Source of the DNA: a bacterium
GTDB taxonomy: Bacteria > NPL-UPA2 > JAGMAN01
DNA length: 12,144 nucleotides
NCBI GenBank assembly: GCA_023130215.1
Contig: JAGMAN010000051.1
Span: forward strand, 1-12,144
Reading direction: 5' to 3'
Part shown: one piece after another, positions 508-6,950 of the stretch
Layout: each line of letters opens with the position of its first letter
Position numbering within the stretch: position 1 is the stretch's first letter
Translations under genes and position numbers: made by a program
Notes under the pieces: model-generated
What the model saw: the letters and a program-made list of their open reading frames with translations, nothing else
The model's database searches: none
What the model was told of the DNA's origin: nothing

Positions 508-1227
508 TCACTGATTACCCGCTTTATATACTCTTATTTCCCCAAATCTGCGTGCCTGGCGAATCTTTATCTCCTTCAGCCTTATGAGTTCCAATAGGGC
601 CAGGAAGGTAACCACCATCTCCACCTTGCTTATCAGTCCGACGAAGAATTTAGTAAAATTCAAGGAGACTTTCACCCTCAACATATCCATGATTTCCCTT
701 ATCTTCTCCTTGACAGTGGTCTCCTCATCCATAATCTCAGTGAACTCATCTCTTGCACCGACCGTCTTTAAGACATTAGAGAAGGCAGAGATCAGATCAA
801 AGAGGTTCGCCTCCAGCAAGAATCCTTCTTTCTGAGATAGCTCTGCCATCTCATCCCCGCCCCGGGTGAAGATCTCCTCCTGCTCAATCTCTCTGATCTC
901 CAGCTTCTCAGCCGATTCTTTGAATTTCCGGTATTCAATTAGCTGTTTTACCAGTTCAGCTCCTGGGTCCTCCTCTAATTCCTCCTCTTCTAACTCTTCT
1001 TCGGGAAGGAGCATGCGTGATTTGATGTGCATAAGAGTGGCAGCCATGACTAAAAATTCTCCGGCTACATCCAGATTGAGCATCTTCATCATCCGAATAT
1101 ATTCCAAATACTGTTCGGTAATTCTGGCAATCGGAATATGATGAATATCCAGCTCTTCTTTCTTGATGAGATAGAGCAATAGGTCCAGTGGTCCTTCAAA
1201 GATTTCCAGTTGCACCTTATAGCTCAT
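508..1227 (-). CDS. scpA: Segregation and condensation protein ScpA (kleisin)
   Basis: ScpA is the bacterial kleisin that bridges the heads of the SMC dimer and binds ScpB, working in chromosome condensation on the nucleoid. The 239-residue protein has the family's usual length. It starts with the typical kleisin N-terminus (LEIFEGPLDLLLYLIKKEELDI at about 7-28), has the AATLMHIKSRMLLP helix at about 62-75, a strongly acidic linker (about 76-88, nearly all Glu/Leu), and the C-terminal winged-helix segment ending in VVTFLALLELIRLKEIKIRQ. The ATG overlaps the end of trpS by 11 nt and scpB begins 1 nt beyond its stop, so the three are one transcriptional unit. The N-terminal alignment to the family supports the start. 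Confidence 0.96.
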   Translation of the reverse strand: MSYKVQLEIFEGPLDLLLYLIKKEELDIHHIPIARITEQYLEYIRMMKMLNLDVAGEFLVMAATLMHIKSRMLLPEEELEEEELEEDPGAELVKQLIEYRKFKESAEKLEIREIEQEEIFTRGGDEMAELSQKEGFLLEANLFDLISAFSNVLKTVGARDEFTEIMDEETTVKEKIREIMDMLRVKVSLNFTKFFVGLISKVEMVVTFLALLELIRLKEIKIRQARRFGEIRVYKAGNQ

Positions 1228-2209
1228 TGGACATTCCCATGGCGGCCATAGCTTCTTTCAAAGTAGCAGAAGCAATCGCCTTAGCTCTTTTACTGCCCTC
1301 CTCTAAAATCTCATCTACTTTCTCCGGGTCATCCTTTATTCTGCTTCGATGTTCCTGTATCCCTTTTAGATAATTTATTAAGACTTGAGCTAACATTTCC
1401 TTACAATCAGTACAGCCAATCTTTGCAGTCCGGCAGTCTTCTGTCAGCTTAGAAATCTTCCCCTCGCTGAAGCATTTATGATAACTATAGACATTGCATA
1501 TCTCGGGATGCCCCGGGTCCCCTCTCTTGACGCGGGCGGGATCGGTAATCATCTGAAGAACCTTCTTGCGAATAGTATCCGGAGAATCAGTTAGGGCAAT
1601 ATAGTTCTGATAGCTCTTACTCATCTTCCGGTTGTCAGTGCCTAAAAGCTTGGGAATATGAGTTAAAATTGGCTGTGGCTCTAAGAAGACCGGACCATAA
1701 AGGTGATTGAATCGCCTGACAATCTCTCGAGCTAACTCTAAATGAGGAAGCTGGTCCTCGCCAACCGGAATTAGGGTAGCCTTATACAGAACAATGTCGG
1801 CTGTCTGCAAGATGGGATAACCCAAAAACCCATAAGTGGATAGGTCCTTACCCTTTAGCTCCTCTTTCTGCTCCTTATAAGTGGGGTTACGCTCCAGCCA
1901 GCCGAGTGGTGTTATCATGGAGAGCAGAAGATGCAACTCCGCATGCTCCGGCACCCTGGATTGGACGAAGATGGTGCATTTCTCTACATCCAGGCCAGCC
2001 GCTAACCAATCAATAACATTCTCCCTGATGTTGTGCCTGATCGGCTTCGGGTCGGCGTATTCAGAAGAGAGAGCATGTAGGTCGGCTACCATGAAAAGAC
2101 AATCGTGCTTATCCTGGAGCTGGACCCAGTTATTCAGAGCACCTAAGAGATTTCCTAAGTGCACCTCTCCTGTAGGCCGAAGACCGCTTAATACCCGTTG
2201 TTTGGCCAT
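1217..2209 (-). CDS. trpS: Tryptophanyl-tRNA synthetase, apparent iron-sulfur type
   Basis: Class Ic aminoacyl-tRNA synthetase charging tRNA(Trp) with tryptophan. The 330-residue protein shows the HIGH-equivalent P12-T-G-E-V-H-L-G-N20, the GEDQ motif (150-153) and KMSKS (195-199). Residues 238-269 contain Cys238, then Cys259, Cys266 and Cys269, i.e. C-x20-C-x6-C-x2-C, with an extra Cys246. From memory, Thermotoga maritima TrpRS binds a [4Fe-4S] cluster through a C-x22-C-x6-C-x2-C motif near the anticodon-binding region, with the same IGC-x-DCK local sequence, so I infer the same cluster here with a loop two residues shorter. The ATG overlaps the upstream protease stop by 1 nt (TAATG), preceded by a GGGGGGAGG purine tract that serves as ribosome binding site. 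The 3' end overlaps scpA. Confidence 0.96.
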   Translation of the reverse strand: MAKQRVLSGLRPTGEVHLGNLLGALNNWVQLQDKHDCLFMVADLHALSSEYADPKPIRHNIRENVIDWLAAGLDVEKCTIFVQSRVPEHAELHLLLSMITPLGWLERNPTYKEQKEELKGKDLSTYGFLGYPILQTADIVLYKATLIPVGEDQLPHLELAREIVRRFNHLYGPVFLEPQPILTHIPKLLGTDNRKMSKSYQNYIALTDSPDTIRKKVLQMITDPARVKRGDPGHPEICNVYSYHKCFSEGKISKLTEDCRTAKIGCTDCKEMLAQVLINYLKGIQEHRSRIKDDPEKVDEILEEGSKRAKAIASATLKEAMAAMGMSNEL

Positions 2210-2853
2210 TAGCCTCCCCCCAGCAGAAAAATGGACAAGTTGCTAGCCATAAACCAAACTATATTAAGGGCACCCATCATAAGCAAAGCAATCAAGATGA
2301 TGAAGCCAAATGGTCTTATCCGACTGAACATCTCTTCATATTTATCAGGCAGAAGGCCCTGCAAGATTCCCGACCCATCCAGGGGAGGCACCGGAATCAG
2401 GTTAAAGAAGGCCAGGATAAGATTCAGATGAACAGCCACAATTAAGAAATGGCGCACTGGCTCCCAAATAGCCCCCGGTAGATGGATGGCTTTTGAGACA
2501 AGAACAGCCATATGAAAGAGGAAAGCAAAGATAACTGCAGAAGCTACATTAGAAGCCGGTCCAGCTAATGATACCAGCATATAGTCACGCTTGATGTGAC
2601 GCAGATTGTAGGGATTCACTGGCACTGGTTTAGCCCATCCTATCAGAAATCCTCCTCCAGTGATAATAATGAGCAAAGGTATAAGTACCGTCCCAATGGG
2701 ATCAAGGTGAGCAATTGGATTTAAAGTGATTCTCCCTTGACTCCTGGCCGTTGGGTCGCCAAGCCTGTCAGCCATCCAGGCATGGCAGCACTCATGAAAA
2801 GCTATAGCCAGTAAAAAAGCCGGTATCCAGATAACAAGCTGCGATAGTCCCAT
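2209..2853 (-). CDS. M50 family site-2-protease-like membrane metalloprotease
   Basis: Intramembrane zinc metalloprotease of the small M50 (site-2 protease) group, 214 residues with about five or six hydrophobic segments. The catalytic HExxH is in the first membrane helix as H20-E-C-C-H24. The AGPASN motif (97-102) and the NLIPVPPLDGSGIL segment (151-164), whose Asp159 should be the third zinc ligand, are both present. LNPIAHLDPIGT (44-55) is also typical. There is no PDZ domain, so this is the short housekeeping-type paralogue rather than an RseP-like sigma-E protease; the substrate is not known. It has a clear ribosome site (AGGAG, about 5 nt before ATG) and overlaps trpS by 1 nt. Its position ahead of trpS-scpA-scpB is an arrangement I recall from several anaerobic bacterial lineages. 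The double Cys inside HExxH is slightly uncommon. Confidence 0.9.
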   Translation of the reverse strand: MGLSQLVIWIPAFLLAIAFHECCHAWMADRLGDPTARSQGRITLNPIAHLDPIGTVLIPLLIIITGGGFLIGWAKPVPVNPYNLRHIKRDYMLVSLAGPASNVASAVIFAFLFHMAVLVSKAIHLPGAIWEPVRHFLIVAVHLNLILAFFNLIPVPPLDGSGILQGLLPDKYEEMFSRIRPFGFIILIALLMMGALNIVWFMASNLSIFLLGGG

Positions 2854-2877
2854 TCTGCTCCTCTTCTCAATAAATCT

Positions 2878-3156
2878 TTAGGTGTTACCCTTTGCAGCCA
2901 TATCACGCTTCGCCTCAACGAAAGCAACTTCTTCTATCTCAATTCGCTCTTGAATAATGTGCATGAGCCACTTTTCAATGTCCGTTTCCCTGTGCAACCT
3001 GGCCAAGAAGGCTGCCCGTGCAGCAAGCTCTGCAGGGACAGACAAAGAAGTCAACTTTGTTTTGCGAATATGAATAGGTTCTTCCCATGCCGAATTGTCA
3101 TCGGCTTGTTCCACTACGATTTTGTCGATTTCCTTTTCAGAGAGTTTCTTTTTCAT
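2878..3156 (-). CDS. Orphan CopG/ribbon-helix-helix antitoxin-like protein
   Basis: A 92-residue soluble protein. The first 30 residues are charged and include a D-x-x-W-E segment. Residues about 33-75 (LTSLSVPAELAARAAFLARLH, then EKWLMHIIQERIEIEE) have the strand-helix-helix spacing of ribbon-helix-helix DNA-binding proteins, and the overall layout resembles CopG/BrnA-type antitoxins. No toxin gene is adjacent: upstream is a MITE-like element, and 24 nt downstream the M50 protease gene begins. There is no Shine-Dalgarno before its ATG (GCGTAAAATG), which is unusual here. It lies directly after an attC-like spacer, so it may be the terminal cassette of the accessory block. The family assignment comes from pattern only; it could be another small DNA-binding or scaffold protein. 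Confidence 0.6.
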   Translation of the reverse strand: MKKKLSEKEIDKIVVEQADDNSAWEEPIHIRKTKLTSLSVPAELAARAAFLARLHRETDIEKWLMHIIQERIEIEEVAFVEAKRDMAAKGNT

Positions 3157-3208
3157 TTTACGCTTCTAACGAGGCTGTAGAAAAACCCTATCTTTACAGA
3201 AATTGCAA

Positions 3209-3226
3209 AAGTTAAAAACTTAACTT
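3209..3226. repeat. Inverted repeat (7-bp stem, 4-nt loop) inside the MITE-like element
   Basis: AAGTTAA and TTAACTT face each other across a 4-nt AAAC loop. The stem sits inside the MITE-like element and adds to its hairpin content. It has no T-tract and is too AT-rich to be a convincing terminator. Confidence 0.5.
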
Positions 3227-3231
3227 GTTAT

Positions 3232-3249
3232 TTTGTAACATGTTACAAA
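3232..3249. repeat. Perfect 18-bp palindrome TTTGTAACATGTTACAAA
   Basis: Nine bases on each side of the centre between 3240 and 3241 are exactly complementary. It lies near the middle of the MITE-like element and about 75 nt upstream of the antitoxin-like start codon. It could be part of the element's fold or a dimeric-protein operator controlling the downstream gene. Nothing in the sequence decides between these. Confidence 0.6.
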
Positions 3250-3296
3250 TCTCAAATTTCGTCAATTTTCACATTTCTGACTTATTCTACAGCCTC

Positions 3297-3380
3297 AACG
3301 GCGAAGCTGAGGGACCATGGCACGAATCTTTGCTTGCCATTGCAAGCGAGTGACTGGTTCGCTCCAGTAATTTGTTATGC
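3297..3380 (-). other. attC-like recombination site 1, after hicA (interrupted by the MITE)
   Basis: Read on the minus strand, this spacer starts with GCATAAC (3374-3380, an R''-like RYYYAAC box with one deviation), overlapping the last base of the hicA stop codon. It contains a CTTGC-AATG-GCAAG hairpin plus other imperfect complementary stretches, and ends at GTT (3299-3297). There the 126-bp element interrupts it; after the element the sequence resumes as GTTAGAAGC, giving an R'-like GTTRRRY box with a deviating last base. About 85-90 nt of folded sequence between such boxes, placed right after a gene, is the layout of an integron attC site. Consensus deviations mean this needs a covariance-model test. 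Confidence 0.5.
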
Positions 3381-3556
3381 TAAATTTTCAATTTCTTAAT
3401 AATGTTCTTTGCGAGACTCTCTTTGATTTCTCTATGCCTCGGAATGGGCTGGCAAACTTTTGTGACGGGATTCTGATACCAATCATGTCTGCCTCCATGC
3501 CTGATGGGAAGACACCCCATCTTCTCAATCTGTTTTATCAGATCCCTTCGCTTCAT
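3380..3556 (-). CDS. hicA: HicA-family mRNA interferase toxin
   Basis: A 58-residue protein easily missed because of its size. HicA toxins are small double-stranded-RNA-binding-fold ribonucleases that cleave mRNA. The sequence begins MKRRDLIKQIEKMG, has the G21-G-R-H24-D-W-Y27 motif carrying the catalytic His, then a PIPRHREI motif (38-45) and a basic C-terminal helix: all the family landmarks at normal length. The ATG overlaps the hicB stop by 4 nt (ATGA), so translation is coupled and antitoxin is made first. The last base of its TAG stop is the first base of an attC-like site. The catalytic His is intact, so the toxin is probably active. The hicB-then-hicA order is less common than hicA-hicB. 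Confidence 0.9.
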   Translation of the reverse strand: MKRRDLIKQIEKMGCLPIRHGGRHDWYQNPVTKVCQPIPRHREIKESLAKNIIKKLKI

Positions 3557-3744
3557 GCTATCTCAAGCTCCGCAACATGATGAACAGAAGGAATATGACC
3601 ACTGGTGAGTTCTTTGTAAATATCGAGTAGATTTAGCTTCAATTCCTCCAGCGTTTCCCCTTGGGTCATATAGTCCGGAAACTCTTCGAGATAGCCTACA
3701 TACATATCATCCTCTTTGTAATAGACAAATTTCTCTTTTTCCAT
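3553..3744 (-). CDS. hicB: HicB-family antitoxin (short form)
   Basis: A 63-residue partner of the downstream HicA. It has the degenerate RNase-H-like HicB fold: KFVYYKEDDMYVGYLEEFPD, followed by the Q-G-E-T-LEEL-x-x-N-L-x-D-I-Y-K-E-L helix (about 28-46). HicB binds and blocks HicA. No C-terminal helix-turn-helix or ribbon-helix-helix domain follows the core, unlike longer HicB proteins, so DNA-binding autoregulation is not obvious. A very strong ribosome site (GGAGGAGGGAGG, 2 nt before ATG) should give high antitoxin output. An attC-like site lies 30 nt upstream, so hicB-hicA together form one cassette-sized unit. Toxin-antitoxin cassettes are well known as stabilisers of integron arrays. 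Confidence 0.88.
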   Translation of the reverse strand: MEKEKFVYYKEDDMYVGYLEEFPDYMTQGETLEELKLNLLDIYKELTSGHIPSVHHVAELEIA

Positions 3745-3773
3745 TGCCTCCCTCCTCCATATTATTTTTCAAA

Positions 3774-3873
3774 GCATAACGGCTGGACTGAGCGAAAGCT
3801 CAGCTCCGCCGAACGCTAGAACTCACCCGCCAAAAAGCGCAGCTTTTTGGTCAGGTGCAGTGGCTGGTTAGGC
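3774..3873 (-). other. attC-like recombination site 2 (100 nt)
   Basis: On the minus strand it runs from GCCTAAC (3873-3867, exact RYYYAAC) to GTTATGC (3780-3774, GTTRRRY with one deviation); the two boxes are complementary except at one position. Inside are two perfect hairpins: a 9-bp stem with a 3-nt loop (3830-3850) and a 6-bp stem closed by GAAA (3788-3803). It begins 13 nt after the stop of the 145-residue gene and ends 29 nt before hicB, as an attC would at the end of one cassette and the start of the next. Neither hairpin is followed by a T-run in the transcription direction, so it is not an intrinsic terminator. Confidence 0.55.
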
Positions 3874-3886
3874 GACCGTCTGCCAT

Positions 3887-4324
3887 TTACTTTAACCTGA
3901 GCCCGGGGTCTGCTAGCGAATAACTACCAACCTCTTTCCCTGACATATTATCGAAAATACGTACTGTATCGCCGTAATTACTACCATCGAAATAGTATGC
4001 ATATACAACACTGACGAACTTTTCTTTCGTTTCAAAATCCAAAGTATAAAATGCGGGTTTAACCCACAATCGCGGAAGCGAACCGGGCACTTCAACTTTT
4101 GCAAAAATACCTTGAGTGATGAGTTTTTCAATTAATTGTTTCCGCTGTTCCTGCATATCCGCGGACTTATCAACTTTAGCCAGAGCAGGTGACTGTTTTT
4201 TAATTTTTTGTGTATCCTTATCGGTGTCGACACTGCCAACAGCAAGGAAAACGAAAATAGCCAAAACAACAAAAGACAAAATATTCCTATTGAGAACGCT
4301 CGTATTATGGGTTTTACTAATCAT
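3887..4324 (-). CDS. Hypothetical membrane-anchored or secreted protein
   Basis: A 145-residue protein of unknown function. Residues 14-31 form one hydrophobic segment after a short polar N-terminus with Arg13, consistent with a signal-anchor or uncleaved signal peptide; there is no lipobox cysteine. A charged Lys/Gln-rich linker follows (32-70). The compact C-terminal domain (about 72-145) is rich in Phe/Tyr/Val, with a PGSLPRLWVKPAFY motif and an FVSVVYAYYFDGS strand pattern, suggesting a small beta-rich extracytoplasmic domain. The ribosome site is excellent (AAAGGAGGT, 7 nt before ATG) and overlaps the end of the upstream VanZ-like gene, so the two are cotranscribed. It ends just before attC-like site 2. 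I do not recognise the family. Confidence 0.75.
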   Translation of the reverse strand: MISKTHNTSVLNRNILSFVVLAIFVFLAVGSVDTDKDTQKIKKQSPALAKVDKSADMQEQRKQLIEKLITQGIFAKVEVPGSLPRLWVKPAFYTLDFETKEKFVSVVYAYYFDGSNYGDTVRIFDNMSGKEVGSYSLADPGLRLK

Positions 4325-4329
4325 TTGGA

Positions 4330-4785
4330 TTACCTCCTTTCTTTTTTCAATGTATACCTCTCAATTGGAATGATAATTCGAGCTATAATTACAGCTATCA
4401 CTATCGCGTTGATGTCCACAATATCAAATCTTCCCGGAACCCTGGGAGAATTCTGGAGTAACTCAGTCCCTATTGCAAGGATAGGAATCACCCAAAACCA
4501 TACATGCTTTAAATGTGATGATTCTCCATACCAGATGACTTTAATAAAAATCAGATAGCTCAAAACCCACAATGCAAATGGACCTGAGAGAATGAATACT
4601 CTTGGCAAACCACCGAACAAATTACTGAGATGAGTACGCAACAAAAAAATCCATTTACTCCAACCGACAAGTTCAAACCATTGGAACATAAGCAAAGAAT
4701 ACGGACGAGCCGTAATATATACCAGCGATCCAGCAACTAGGCAGCCAATTGCAACTATGCTGTATGTGAATTTTGCTTTATTCAT
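4330..4785 (-). CDS. VanZ-like integral membrane protein
   Basis: A 151-residue protein with about four hydrophobic segments (roughly 8-26, 42-58, 64-84, 93-107) plus a last one at 124-141. The C-terminal part, GTELLQ (106-111) followed by R-F-D-I-V-D-I-N-A (118-126), matches the ExxQ...R-x-D-x-x-D-x-x-x-N core of VanZ-like proteins. That family includes VanZ, which gives low-level teicoplanin tolerance, and many members of unknown role. Function here is unassigned. The start lies 4 nt after the attC-like palindrome at 4790-4808 with no strong ribosome site. Its stop is embedded in the ribosome site of the next gene 5 nt away, so the pair behaves as one two-gene unit. Confidence 0.72.
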   Translation of the reverse strand: MNKAKFTYSIVAIGCLVAGSLVYITARPYSLLMFQWFELVGWSKWIFLLRTHLSNLFGGLPRVFILSGPFALWVLSYLIFIKVIWYGESSHLKHVWFWVIPILAIGTELLQNSPRVPGRFDIVDINAIVIAVIIARIIIPIERYTLKKERR

Positions 4786-4789
4786 TTAC

Positions 4790-4808
4790 GCCTAACGCAT
4801 TGTTAGGC
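4790..4808 (-). other. Collapsed attC-like palindrome GCCTAACAATGCGTTAGGC
   Basis: Exact R''-type GCCTAAC and exact R'-type GTTAGGC boxes face each other across only 5 nt, in the gap between the zinc-ribbon gene and the VanZ-like gene. The flanks GCCTAACAA and GCGTTAGGC are what one sees at the two ends of many full attC sites, so this looks like an attC whose central stem has been deleted. It may no longer recombine, but it marks a cassette junction. A chance palindrome is possible; its location and agreement with both boxes argue against that. Confidence 0.5.
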
Positions 4809-4814
4809 AAATTA

Positions 4815-5135
4815 TTACCCATGGTGCCACCACGAAATGAACCTTACGCCAATGAACCAGATTAGACCAGCTATCAAACCCAACATACCAAATGCCCCGG
4901 CACCTGAGGATTCTCCAGAGAATCCCACAATCATGACAATAACACTACCAATGATGAGAAATGTTGATAATAGCTGTTGTAGTTTATACCTTTTTGACGT
5001 CTGTTCAATGGTTTGGGTTTTACCACCATGGGCCTGCGTTGTTCCACCTCCAGCAGTTGGGTAAGCACATTTGGGACAACTCTCCGCTCTATCCGAAACT
5101 TCAATACCGCATTCTGGACATTTGATTAATGCCAT
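4815..5135 (-). CDS. Zinc-ribbon domain membrane protein, function unknown
   Basis: A 106-residue protein with an N-terminal zinc ribbon: C6-P-E-C9 and C20-P-K-C23 (CxxC-x10-CxxC), a Gly/Thr/Gln linker (28-50), and two hydrophobic segments at about 57-72 and 80-98 forming a membrane hairpin, ending W-W-H-H-G. Small proteins with this zinc-ribbon plus two-helix design are widespread and mostly uncharacterised. The ribosome site is strong (AAGGAGGAG, 4 nt before ATG). A GTTAGGC box lies 22 nt upstream of the start and the collapsed attC-like palindrome a few nucleotides after the stop, so the gene sits as a single-gene cassette. No enzymatic motif is visible. Confidence 0.75.
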
Positions 5136-5157
5136 GGTTCTCCTCCTTTTTTTTCGT

Positions 5158-5164
5158 GCCTAAC
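5158..5164 (-). other. Isolated attC R'-like box GTTAGGC
   Basis: On the minus strand GTTAGGC occurs directly before the ribosome site of the zinc-ribbon gene, at the same relative place as the boxes at the other cassette junctions. No matching RYYYAAC box is found within normal attC distance upstream (5165-5320), so the site is either a half-site left by decay or chance. It marks the right-hand limit of the recognisable cassette-like block. Confidence 0.3.
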
Positions 5165-5639
5165 AATTAATATACGAAGTTCTCTTTTTCAGGTATTTTT
5201 GATATTTTCCCTGCTTTTGCCTAAATTATAAACCCGATATAAATTCTACCCACGAAAATCATATCTCTAGCAAAATCAATTAGTTACAGCTGACAAAAAC
5301 ATTTTTGTATCAAATGTAATATGCTGATTTAGTTCGCTTTTTATATGTAATAGCAGGTATTGCGCAGTTCATAAAATATTGGTTTTTGTGCATTAGAGTT
5401 TACCAATAACACTAATGAATAGATTGAGCTATATCTCAGGTCTCATATTGTATTGTTGTCCTAAACATTACCATTAAAAAATGAGTTTGTCAAGAGGTTG
5501 TTAGAGGCAACAAGCGATTTTTTCCTTTTTCTGAATGGCTTGTTAAATATAAAGAATGGGGAGCACTAATTGATTGGAAAAGCAAGCATCGTCGGATTCA
5601 ACACGAAAAATCTATTTGGAACGACAAACATAAAATTTA
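5165..5639. other. AT-rich intergenic stretch without a confident gene
   Basis: About 475 nt with no supported gene on either strand. It is clearly more AT-rich than the housekeeping genes around it. It holds an imperfect hairpin at 5391-5417, a TATAAT on the minus strand at 5230-5225 without a good -35, and from 5485 a start-less open frame described separately. No CRISPR repeat, tRNA or convincing riboswitch was seen. It lies at the junction between the cassette-like block and the CCA gene, so it may hold decayed accessory DNA and the promoter for the minus-strand small genes. Confidence 0.5.
5391..5417. repeat. Imperfect inverted repeat (9 of 10 paired, 7-nt loop)
   Basis: CATTAGAGTT pairs with AACACTAATG across TACCAAT, with a single A-A mismatch in the stem. 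It is not followed by a T-run on either strand, so it is not a standard terminator. It could be an operator or a remnant of a mobile sequence. Confidence 0.35.
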
Positions 5640-5682
5640 TCAAGCCTTTGAAGGCGTTTTTGATATATTCATCTTCACATAG
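5485..5682 (+). pseudogene. Possible truncated gene remnant (no start codon)
   Basis: An open frame of 65 codons following a TGA at 5482-5484 and ending at TAG 5680-5682. The first 52 codons or so, before it runs into the antisense of the CCA gene, look protein-like: RFFPFSEWLVKYKEWGAL, then charged IDWKSKHRRIQHEKSIWNDK, with three spaced Trp residues. No ATG, GTG or TTG is available in frame, so this would be the 3' end of a gene whose 5' part is lost. I do not recognise a family. A chance open frame in AT-rich DNA is possible. Confidence 0.25.
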
Positions 5683-6950
5683 TTCAGCTCATCCCGTTTA
5701 GTCTTGAGGGAGCCGTCCAGTTTGGCATAGAGGGCCTTCTTCAAGATTTTGGCAAACCGTGGGCCGGGCTTAAGGCCAAGTTCTTTCAGGTCATCTCCAG
5801 TTACCTTTAACTTTACTTGACGCAATTCTCTTAAGTAAAGAGAAACCCTCTCACTAACTATTCTGCTGGCCCTGGCCCTGGCCATAACCACTAACAAACT
5901 CTCAAGAGACAATTTCTCTAACTGGCAATAGATTTGGCTGGGGCTTAGCTTTTCTTTGCCAAGATGTCTCAGCTTCCTGGAGATTCCCTCTTTACTCCTA
6001 ATCACCTTCTCCTCATCTTTCCTGCTCAAATGGAACCTCTGGCAAGTAGCCCTTGCCTCTTTCACAGTTAATTTATGGAGAAGGGCAGAGAAGTAAATGA
6101 GCCACTGCGAGGGTTTCTCTTTCGGTAATGAGGACCTGAACCAATTTAAGACCTCCTTTAGGTTGCCAAGCAACTTTCTTAACTGCTTGTTAAATTTGAT
6201 TCTCGGATGAATAAATTTAAGTTCATGCAGTTCAGCCATCTTCTTTATCGCCCTCACGGGATTCTTTTCACTGAAGATTAAGACAAGCTCATCCCTCACT
6301 CTTTCAATGGTCAGTTCATCAAACATAGCTAAATCGGTCGCCTGCTTAATTAACTTCTTTGTCCATTCATCTATCTTAAACTGATAACGTTCGGAAAATC
6401 TCACTGCCCGGAAGATTCTGGTGGGGTCATCAATGAAACTTCCGTCGTGAAGGGCCCGAACCACTCCTTTCTTTAGGTCCCTTTCCCCACCGAAGGAATC
6501 TATCAGTTTCCCAAATTCCCCGGGATTGAGCTTGATGGCCATCGCGTTGATGGTGAAGTCGCGACGAAACTGGTCCTCTCTAATGGAACTTGCCTCAACT
6601 ATCGGTAGAGCAGCCGGGCGCTCATAATATTCCTGGCGGGCAGTAGCTACATCAACCTTAAATCCACCCCGCAGAGTAACTATAGCCGTTCCAAAACGAG
6701 TTATACCCTTTACCCTTCCCGATAAATGCTCTGCCAGCTTCTTTGCGAAGGCTATCCCATCTCCCTCCACGGTAATGTCAACATCCAGATTCTCTACTCC
6801 TAAGAAGAGATCCCTGACCACACCTCCCACTAAGTAGGCAGAGTAGTCCATCTCCTGAGCTACCTCCCCGGCAACACTGACAATCCGAAGAACTCTATGG
6901 GAGGTCTTCTCCTCTATTAACGCTTTAAGGTTTCTGCTCCTGGTTTTCAT
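5640..6950 (-). CDS. cca: CCA tRNA nucleotidyltransferase / poly(A)-polymerase family (class II)
   Basis: A class II nucleotidyltransferase adding CCA (or A) to tRNA 3' ends; cytoplasmic. The 436-residue protein has the Pol-beta-type head: GGVVRD (42-47), metal-binding D56-V-D58, the RRDFTINAMA motif (129-138), and DDPTRIFRAVRF (174-185). The ERVRDEL helix (216-222) belongs to the neck that reads the incoming nucleotide. The C-terminal tail has the VTGDDLKELGLKPGP-type element (384-398) followed by a basic helix, as in bacterial CCA-adding enzymes. There is no HD domain. Whether it adds the whole CCA or only the last A, as in species with split CC- and A-adding enzymes, cannot be decided here. 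It diverges from the hydrogenase operon; its ATG lies about 2 nt from the predicted transcription start, with no Shine-Dalgarno. Confidence 0.92.
   Translation of the reverse strand: MKTRSRNLKALIEEKTSHRVLRIVSVAGEVAQEMDYSAYLVGGVVRDLFLGVENLDVDITVEGDGIAFAKKLAEHLSGRVKGITRFGTAIVTLRGGFKVDVATARQEYYERPAALPIVEASSIREDQFRRDFTINAMAIKLNPGEFGKLIDSFGGERDLKKGVVRALHDGSFIDDPTRIFRAVRFSERYQFKIDEWTKKLIKQATDLAMFDELTIERVRDELVLIFSEKNPVRAIKKMAELHELKFIHPRIKFNKQLRKLLGNLKEVLNWFRSSLPKEKPSQWLIYFSALLHKLTVKEARATCQRFHLSRKDEEKVIRSKEGISRKLRHLGKEKLSPSQIYCQLEKLSLESLLVVMARARASRIVSERVSLYLRELRQVKLKVTGDDLKELGLKPGPRFAKILKKALYAKLDGSLKTKRDELNYVKMNISKTPSKA

Follow-up and report, generated by a model that had tools for sequence, protein, structure and literature searches.

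The interval 2870-5640 of the stretch of DNA analysed here (the window, 12,144 nucleotides in full) is very probably a CALIN, lying between a tRNA nucleotidyltransferase gene and the M50-trpS-scpAB operon, whose cassettes would have been joined by an integron integrase (IntI) and have since decayed. The window is contig C84 of draft genome G000, which comprises 1.01 Mb in 136 contigs and is about 90% complete. A CALIN is a cluster of attC sites with no integrase nearby (IntegronFinder 2.0, PMC9024848). Such a cluster had been proposed in a preliminary description of the letters alone, with an attC covariance search as the check. The search was carried out with two models, R1 and R2, and two clustered attC sites were found, at 3808-3873 (R1, E 1.2e-8 in the window) and at 3292-3380 (R2, E 2.8e-6; R1, E 0.44), while no integron integrase gene was present nearby. 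The CALIN-like reading thereby gained support, as R1 recovers an attC site, the gene order is not fixed among relatives and no intI was found in the assembled genome; neither of the outcomes named in the description as refuting was observed. The six small genes listed in the description are present. All of them are minus-strand ORFs situated between the genes for the M50 protease and the tRNA nucleotidyltransferase, and the boxes are where the description placed them, with the refinements given below. An Rfam scan of the window gave no match.

The covariance model R1 was built from 17 attC sites located beside intI in other phyla and contains no sequence from the host phylum. Its candidates were picked by box and fold criteria from 80 intI loci of many phyla, fetched with the IntI of genome G003. 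The stems of the training sites showed covariation far above both shuffled and shifted controls. In a positive control R1 gave 47 matches at 20 intI loci, many of which had not been used for training, and all except one were on the expected strand (46/47). Across the host phylum it found attC sites in seven of the nine genomes examined. These matches were used for the phylum model R2, with attC B in the training set and attC A left out, and R2 recorded 56 attC sites distributed over all nine genomes. Judged by R'' and R' boxes, by an imperfect stem with extra-helical bases at conserved positions and by covariation, the sites qualify as attC. Pair counts on the phylum sites show strong covariation, in an alignment which was itself fitted to the model. 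Many of the phylum sites are placed just after a same-strand stop codon and ahead of a same-strand gene.

Only one attC site within the window, attC B, was strong under R1. Its genome-wide E value was 9.7e-7, its DNA fold gave a z of -2.4, and under R2, to whose training set it belongs, it scored 66.3 bits. The extra-helical bases stand in ACT-G-CACCTG-A-CC... facing GGCGGGTGAGT. Copies 84-93% identical over about 50-59 bp were found at several loci in G000, G007, G008 and G004, where they recur behind unrelated genes. Neither attC B nor the MITE described below had a match when plasmids were searched. The structured spacer previously outlined at 3774-3873 contains a canonical attC, and its remaining part is an extra hairpin. 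The spacer at 3297-3380, attC A, is attC-like as proposed, with 30.2 bits under R2 and a weak 11.3 bits under R1; the splitting of its R' box by a MITE had been missed earlier. An 87% identical copy follows another gene at C88:4497-4556. The description of a collapsed spacer at 4790-4808 agrees with what we found, an R''-R' pair located 6 bp past one stop codon and 5 bp ahead of the next start. Fragments of the spacers repeat on contigs C85, C88, C135 and C60 of the same genome, mostly beside unrelated genes.

Table 1. Features of the cassette cluster and its flanks, in window coordinates.
Feature	Position	Strand	Basis and remarks
M50 protease gene	2209-2853		flank of the cluster on the M50-trpS-scpAB operon side
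Final cluster gene, 92 aa	2878-3156	-	no Pfam or NCBIfam match; no attC behind it
MITE, 126 bp, TIR GAGGCTGTAGAAWAA	3171-3296		target duplication GTT at 3168-3170 and 3297-3299
attC A, divergent	3297-3380	-	R'' GCATAAC 3374-3380; R' remainder 3164-3170, split by the MITE
hicA-like toxin gene, 58 aa	3380-3556	-	Pfam HicA_toxin, 46.5 bits (cut-off 27)
hicB-like antitoxin gene, 63 aa	3553-3744	-	Pfam UPF0150, E 0.0025, below curated cut-off; overlaps hicA
Extra hairpin ending in R'-type box GTTATGC	3774-3807	-	fold; homology of the hicBA unit with G003:C64 begins at the GTTATGC box
attC B, canonical	3808-3873	-	R'' GCCTAAC, R' GTTCGGC, two extra-helical bases; R1 47.4 bits
Cassette gene, 145 aa	3887-4324	-	ORF; no Pfam or NCBIfam match; stop 13 bp before attC B
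Cassette gene, 151 aa, hydrophobic	4330-4785	-	ORF; family unassigned, no Pfam or NCBIfam match
Collapsed attC	4790-4808	-	R'' GCCTAAC, 5 nt, R' GTTAGGC; R1 19.5 bits, E 0.008; R2 16 bits, E 0.023
Cassette gene, 106 aa, zinc-ribbon protein with hydrophobic segments	4815-5135	-	Pfam Zn_Ribbon_1, E 6e-6
attI-like core, GAACTTCGTATATTAATTGTTA, 22 bp	5161-5182	-	GTTAGGC box 5158-5164; putative crossover G^TT
Non-coding leader, about 470 bp	5183-5640	-	from tRNA nucleotidyltransferase gene to cassettes; no ORF of at least 40 aa on this strand
tRNA nucleotidyltransferase gene	5640-6950		NCBIfam A-adding/CCA family, below equivalog cut-offs

The cargo attributed to the cluster in the preliminary description was retained in part (Table 1). 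HicA is well above its cut-off, HicB is recognised weakly, and the orphan antitoxin, the last gene of the cluster, was over-called. The stop codon of this last gene adjoins sequence which is common to the region upstream of M50 in G006.

The box at 5158-5164, earlier described as lone, is present; it is the end of the 22-bp attI-like core that stands behind the leader. The exact 22-mer was found at G003:C140 and G005:C87, with one mismatch at G005:C86 and nearly identical at G007:C160, and more divergent copies occur at G007:C111, G004:C24, C135 and C88. The copies that were examined lie ahead of same-strand cassette-type genes in unrelated neighbourhoods, and intI was found beside none of the copies. 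Some of these loci share homologous upstream leaders, over 200-400 bp; the leader in the window is paralogous to that of G007:C111 (68% over about 268 bp) and partly to those of G005:C86 and G005:C87. No match to the core within four mismatches was obtained in 939 kb of intI loci from other phyla. The sequence preceding GTT in the core resembles AATAAAATGTTRRRY, the reported core of partial attI2 sites (PMC12901181). In IMG/VR the core was found once, on contig L238 (IMGVR_UViG_3300037047_000308), where positions 1130-5561 contain the core followed by genes and four attC matches, which share one strand; a ParB-like gene lies upstream, and the stretch read contained no intI. This contig is presumed to be a cassette array on a plasmid or phage. 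In viral contigs a shortened attI pattern gave nothing beyond chance matches, without attC, which suggests that the signal is carried by the full 22-bp core. Since the core precedes the first cassette gene, and identity with G007 stops at its box, the site at the end of the leader would be the attI of the cluster, at the head of the array with cassettes joining at GTT. Cassettes may be expressed from the leader. A promoter scan of 2800-5750 gave 8 matches against 7.7 expected by chance, so we propose no Pc promoter. At 5442-5497 the leader contains a block of 56 bp that is 82% identical to G000:C115:1830-1885(-), away from any cassette seen; it is possibly a shared promoter-like element.

Comparison with relatives showed that the six genes do not stand in a fixed order. 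In G006, of the same genus, only 203 bp separate the M50 and tRNA nucleotidyltransferase genes, and both the leader and the cassettes are missing. In G007:C160, also of the same genus, the leader is 97% identical over 504 bp (window 5157-5660) and ends ...ATTAATCGTTGGGC; beyond the GTT box the sequence differs from the window and a different first gene follows, of which the junction alone is visible, the contig ending just after. The hicBA unit was found in another family, in G003:C64 (L225), with 86% DNA identity over 408 aligned positions. This homology starts at CGTTATG, the R' box, and ends at GCATAA, the R'' box, while the neighbours differ. The empty site in G006, the GTT junction in G007 and the hicBA unit in G003 are thus units gained or lost with their ends at boxes, as gene cassettes are. 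The attC bodies of the two hicBA units (window 3380-3780 and G003:C64) are unlike each other, a difference that a simple exchange of cassettes leaves unexplained; it seems that a different attC came to stand behind the same gene unit.

The absence of an integrase gene, noted earlier for the window, extends to the whole assembled genome, where searches with TIGR02249 gave XerC, XerD and fragments. These tyrosine recombinases match IntI profiles and were rejected as intI. Among the genomes compared, only G003 exceeded the TIGR02249 cut-off of 265, with an intact IntI of 410 aa scoring 405.6 bits. An attC-like candidate beside this intI (L028:7571-7639) did not hold up under the models and was discarded. 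In G004:C13 (L035:6402-6596(-)), the last 65 residues of an intI, 89% identical to the IntI of G003, remain among attC sites, and here the decay of an integron is caught directly. Because loss is seen directly in this relative, intI loss is the simplest reading for the window cluster as well. The genome being about 90% complete in 136 contigs, an intI may also sit in the missing part. With no intI beside the leader, the locus is not a complete integron.

A MITE similar to the one that splits attC A was found in an attC R' box in G007:C126 (L229). Further copies are located in L231 and, twice, in L236 (961-1101 and 3287-3435); on these two contigs the surrounding attC was recognised by visual inspection alone, since R1 and R2 gave no score for the split sites. 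All five complete copies are accompanied by the GTT duplication. Partial copies were observed at the end of G000:C60 and in L237. No autonomous parent element was found for this family. Another mobile element was seen in G000:C88 (L030), where 4085-4409(-) matches group II intron domains D1-D4 (RF02001, 120 bits, and RF01998). It begins directly downstream of an attC and is oriented as the cassettes are, unlike typical group IIC-attC introns.

According to the reading we prefer, the cluster would open with the leader and its attI-like site, followed by cassettes on the minus strand, each consisting of a gene or gene pair with its attC. An integron integrase would have joined them at GTT, by recombination of attC with attI or of attC with attC, acting on the folded bottom strand of attC. 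With the integrase neither nearby nor in the assembled genome, the cluster may be frozen, or it may be mobilised by an integrase in trans. Later decay would account for the attC collapsed to its R boxes, for the one split by a GTT-duplicating MITE, and for the last gene, which would have lost its attC. On a wider scale we tentatively suggest, at somewhat less than an even chance, that the integron of this phylum is dispersed: the attI-like core and its leader, without intI, would have been copied to several loci and to a mobile element as separate entry points for cassettes, with the integrase acting in trans or lost.

Three other explanations were weighed. Insertion of the cassettes at an attG-type secondary site, by an integrase whose gene lies elsewhere, with the core as a preferred secondary site and no degraded integron at all, is unlikely in our view, though far from negligible. 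It would fit the presence, in each genome, of several loci with unrelated surroundings and no intI beside them, and other integrases are documented to integrate at attG (Loot et al., 2024, as cited in PMC12690207 and PMC12444791). However, the core is 22 bp long, conserved across families and accompanied by a homologous leader of 200-400 bp, the empty site lacks the leader, and attG integration in E. coli, according to PMC12444791, was scattered over many loci and less site-specific.

The spacers could also be a non-integron interspersed repeat with AAC and GTT ends, of REP or MITE type or terminators, standing between ordinary operon genes. Near-identical copies of attC B are indeed dispersed over the genome, and a true MITE occurs in the same region. 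Yet attC B was matched by a model trained only on attC sites beside intI, and many of the attC matches in the phylum stand shortly past a same-strand stop and before a same-strand gene. Moreover, the hicBA homology between families stops at the boxes, and four attC sites follow the core in L238; this explanation is already largely refuted and we hold it to be very improbable. That the cassette region came from another organism through an assembly or binning artefact is scarcely credible. The genome is a draft MAG, and repeats favour misassembly; nevertheless, in the independent same-genus genome G007 the leader and the tRNA nucleotidyltransferase gene are contiguous on C160 (92% over 1.5 kb), and the M50 side matches G006.

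Integron cassettes whose junctions are backed by relatives are thus reported from a small, poorly known phylum, in which genes would be swapped by a route mainly known from clinical and marine bacteria. The occupied and the empty locus within one genus form a clean natural experiment on cassette clusters that outlive their integrase. Should the MITE family prove to insert at the crossover triplet of attC in several hosts, it would be a further integron parasite.

Among known attC-targeting elements, those of the IS1111 type have subterminal repeats and make no target duplication, whereas the element in the window is bounded by terminal inverted repeats and has duplicated GTT at its target. Insertion elements of the IS1111-attC type that target attC were reportedly described by Tetu and Holmes in 2008. 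IS1111-attC elements and group IIC-attC introns (PMC7923331) share with our MITE the insertion of a mobile element in attC. Known CALINs resemble the window cluster in that two or more attC sites lie within a few kb, among small same-strand genes and with no integrase gene nearby; in contrast to them, the cluster described here starts with an attI-like leader which is conserved and found again at several loci of the same genome as well as in other families, and its host phylum is represented by only nine genomes in the collection searched. This repeated attI-like leader without an integrase is the unusual part. Lineage-typical attC sites after unrelated genes, with toxin-antitoxin and unknown cargo, are shared with the sedentary chromosomal integrons of Vibrio and Xanthomonas, but here there are very few cassettes per locus, many loci and no intI alongside. 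In Xanthomonas intI has been lost while cassettes remain, and CALINs outlasting intI are known (PMC12444791). Finally, attG insertions and single attC sites without integrase (Loot et al., 2024, as cited in PMC12690207 and PMC12444791) likewise place cassettes outside an integron at scattered loci, whereas entry here is at a core of 22 bp that is conserved and has a homologous leader.
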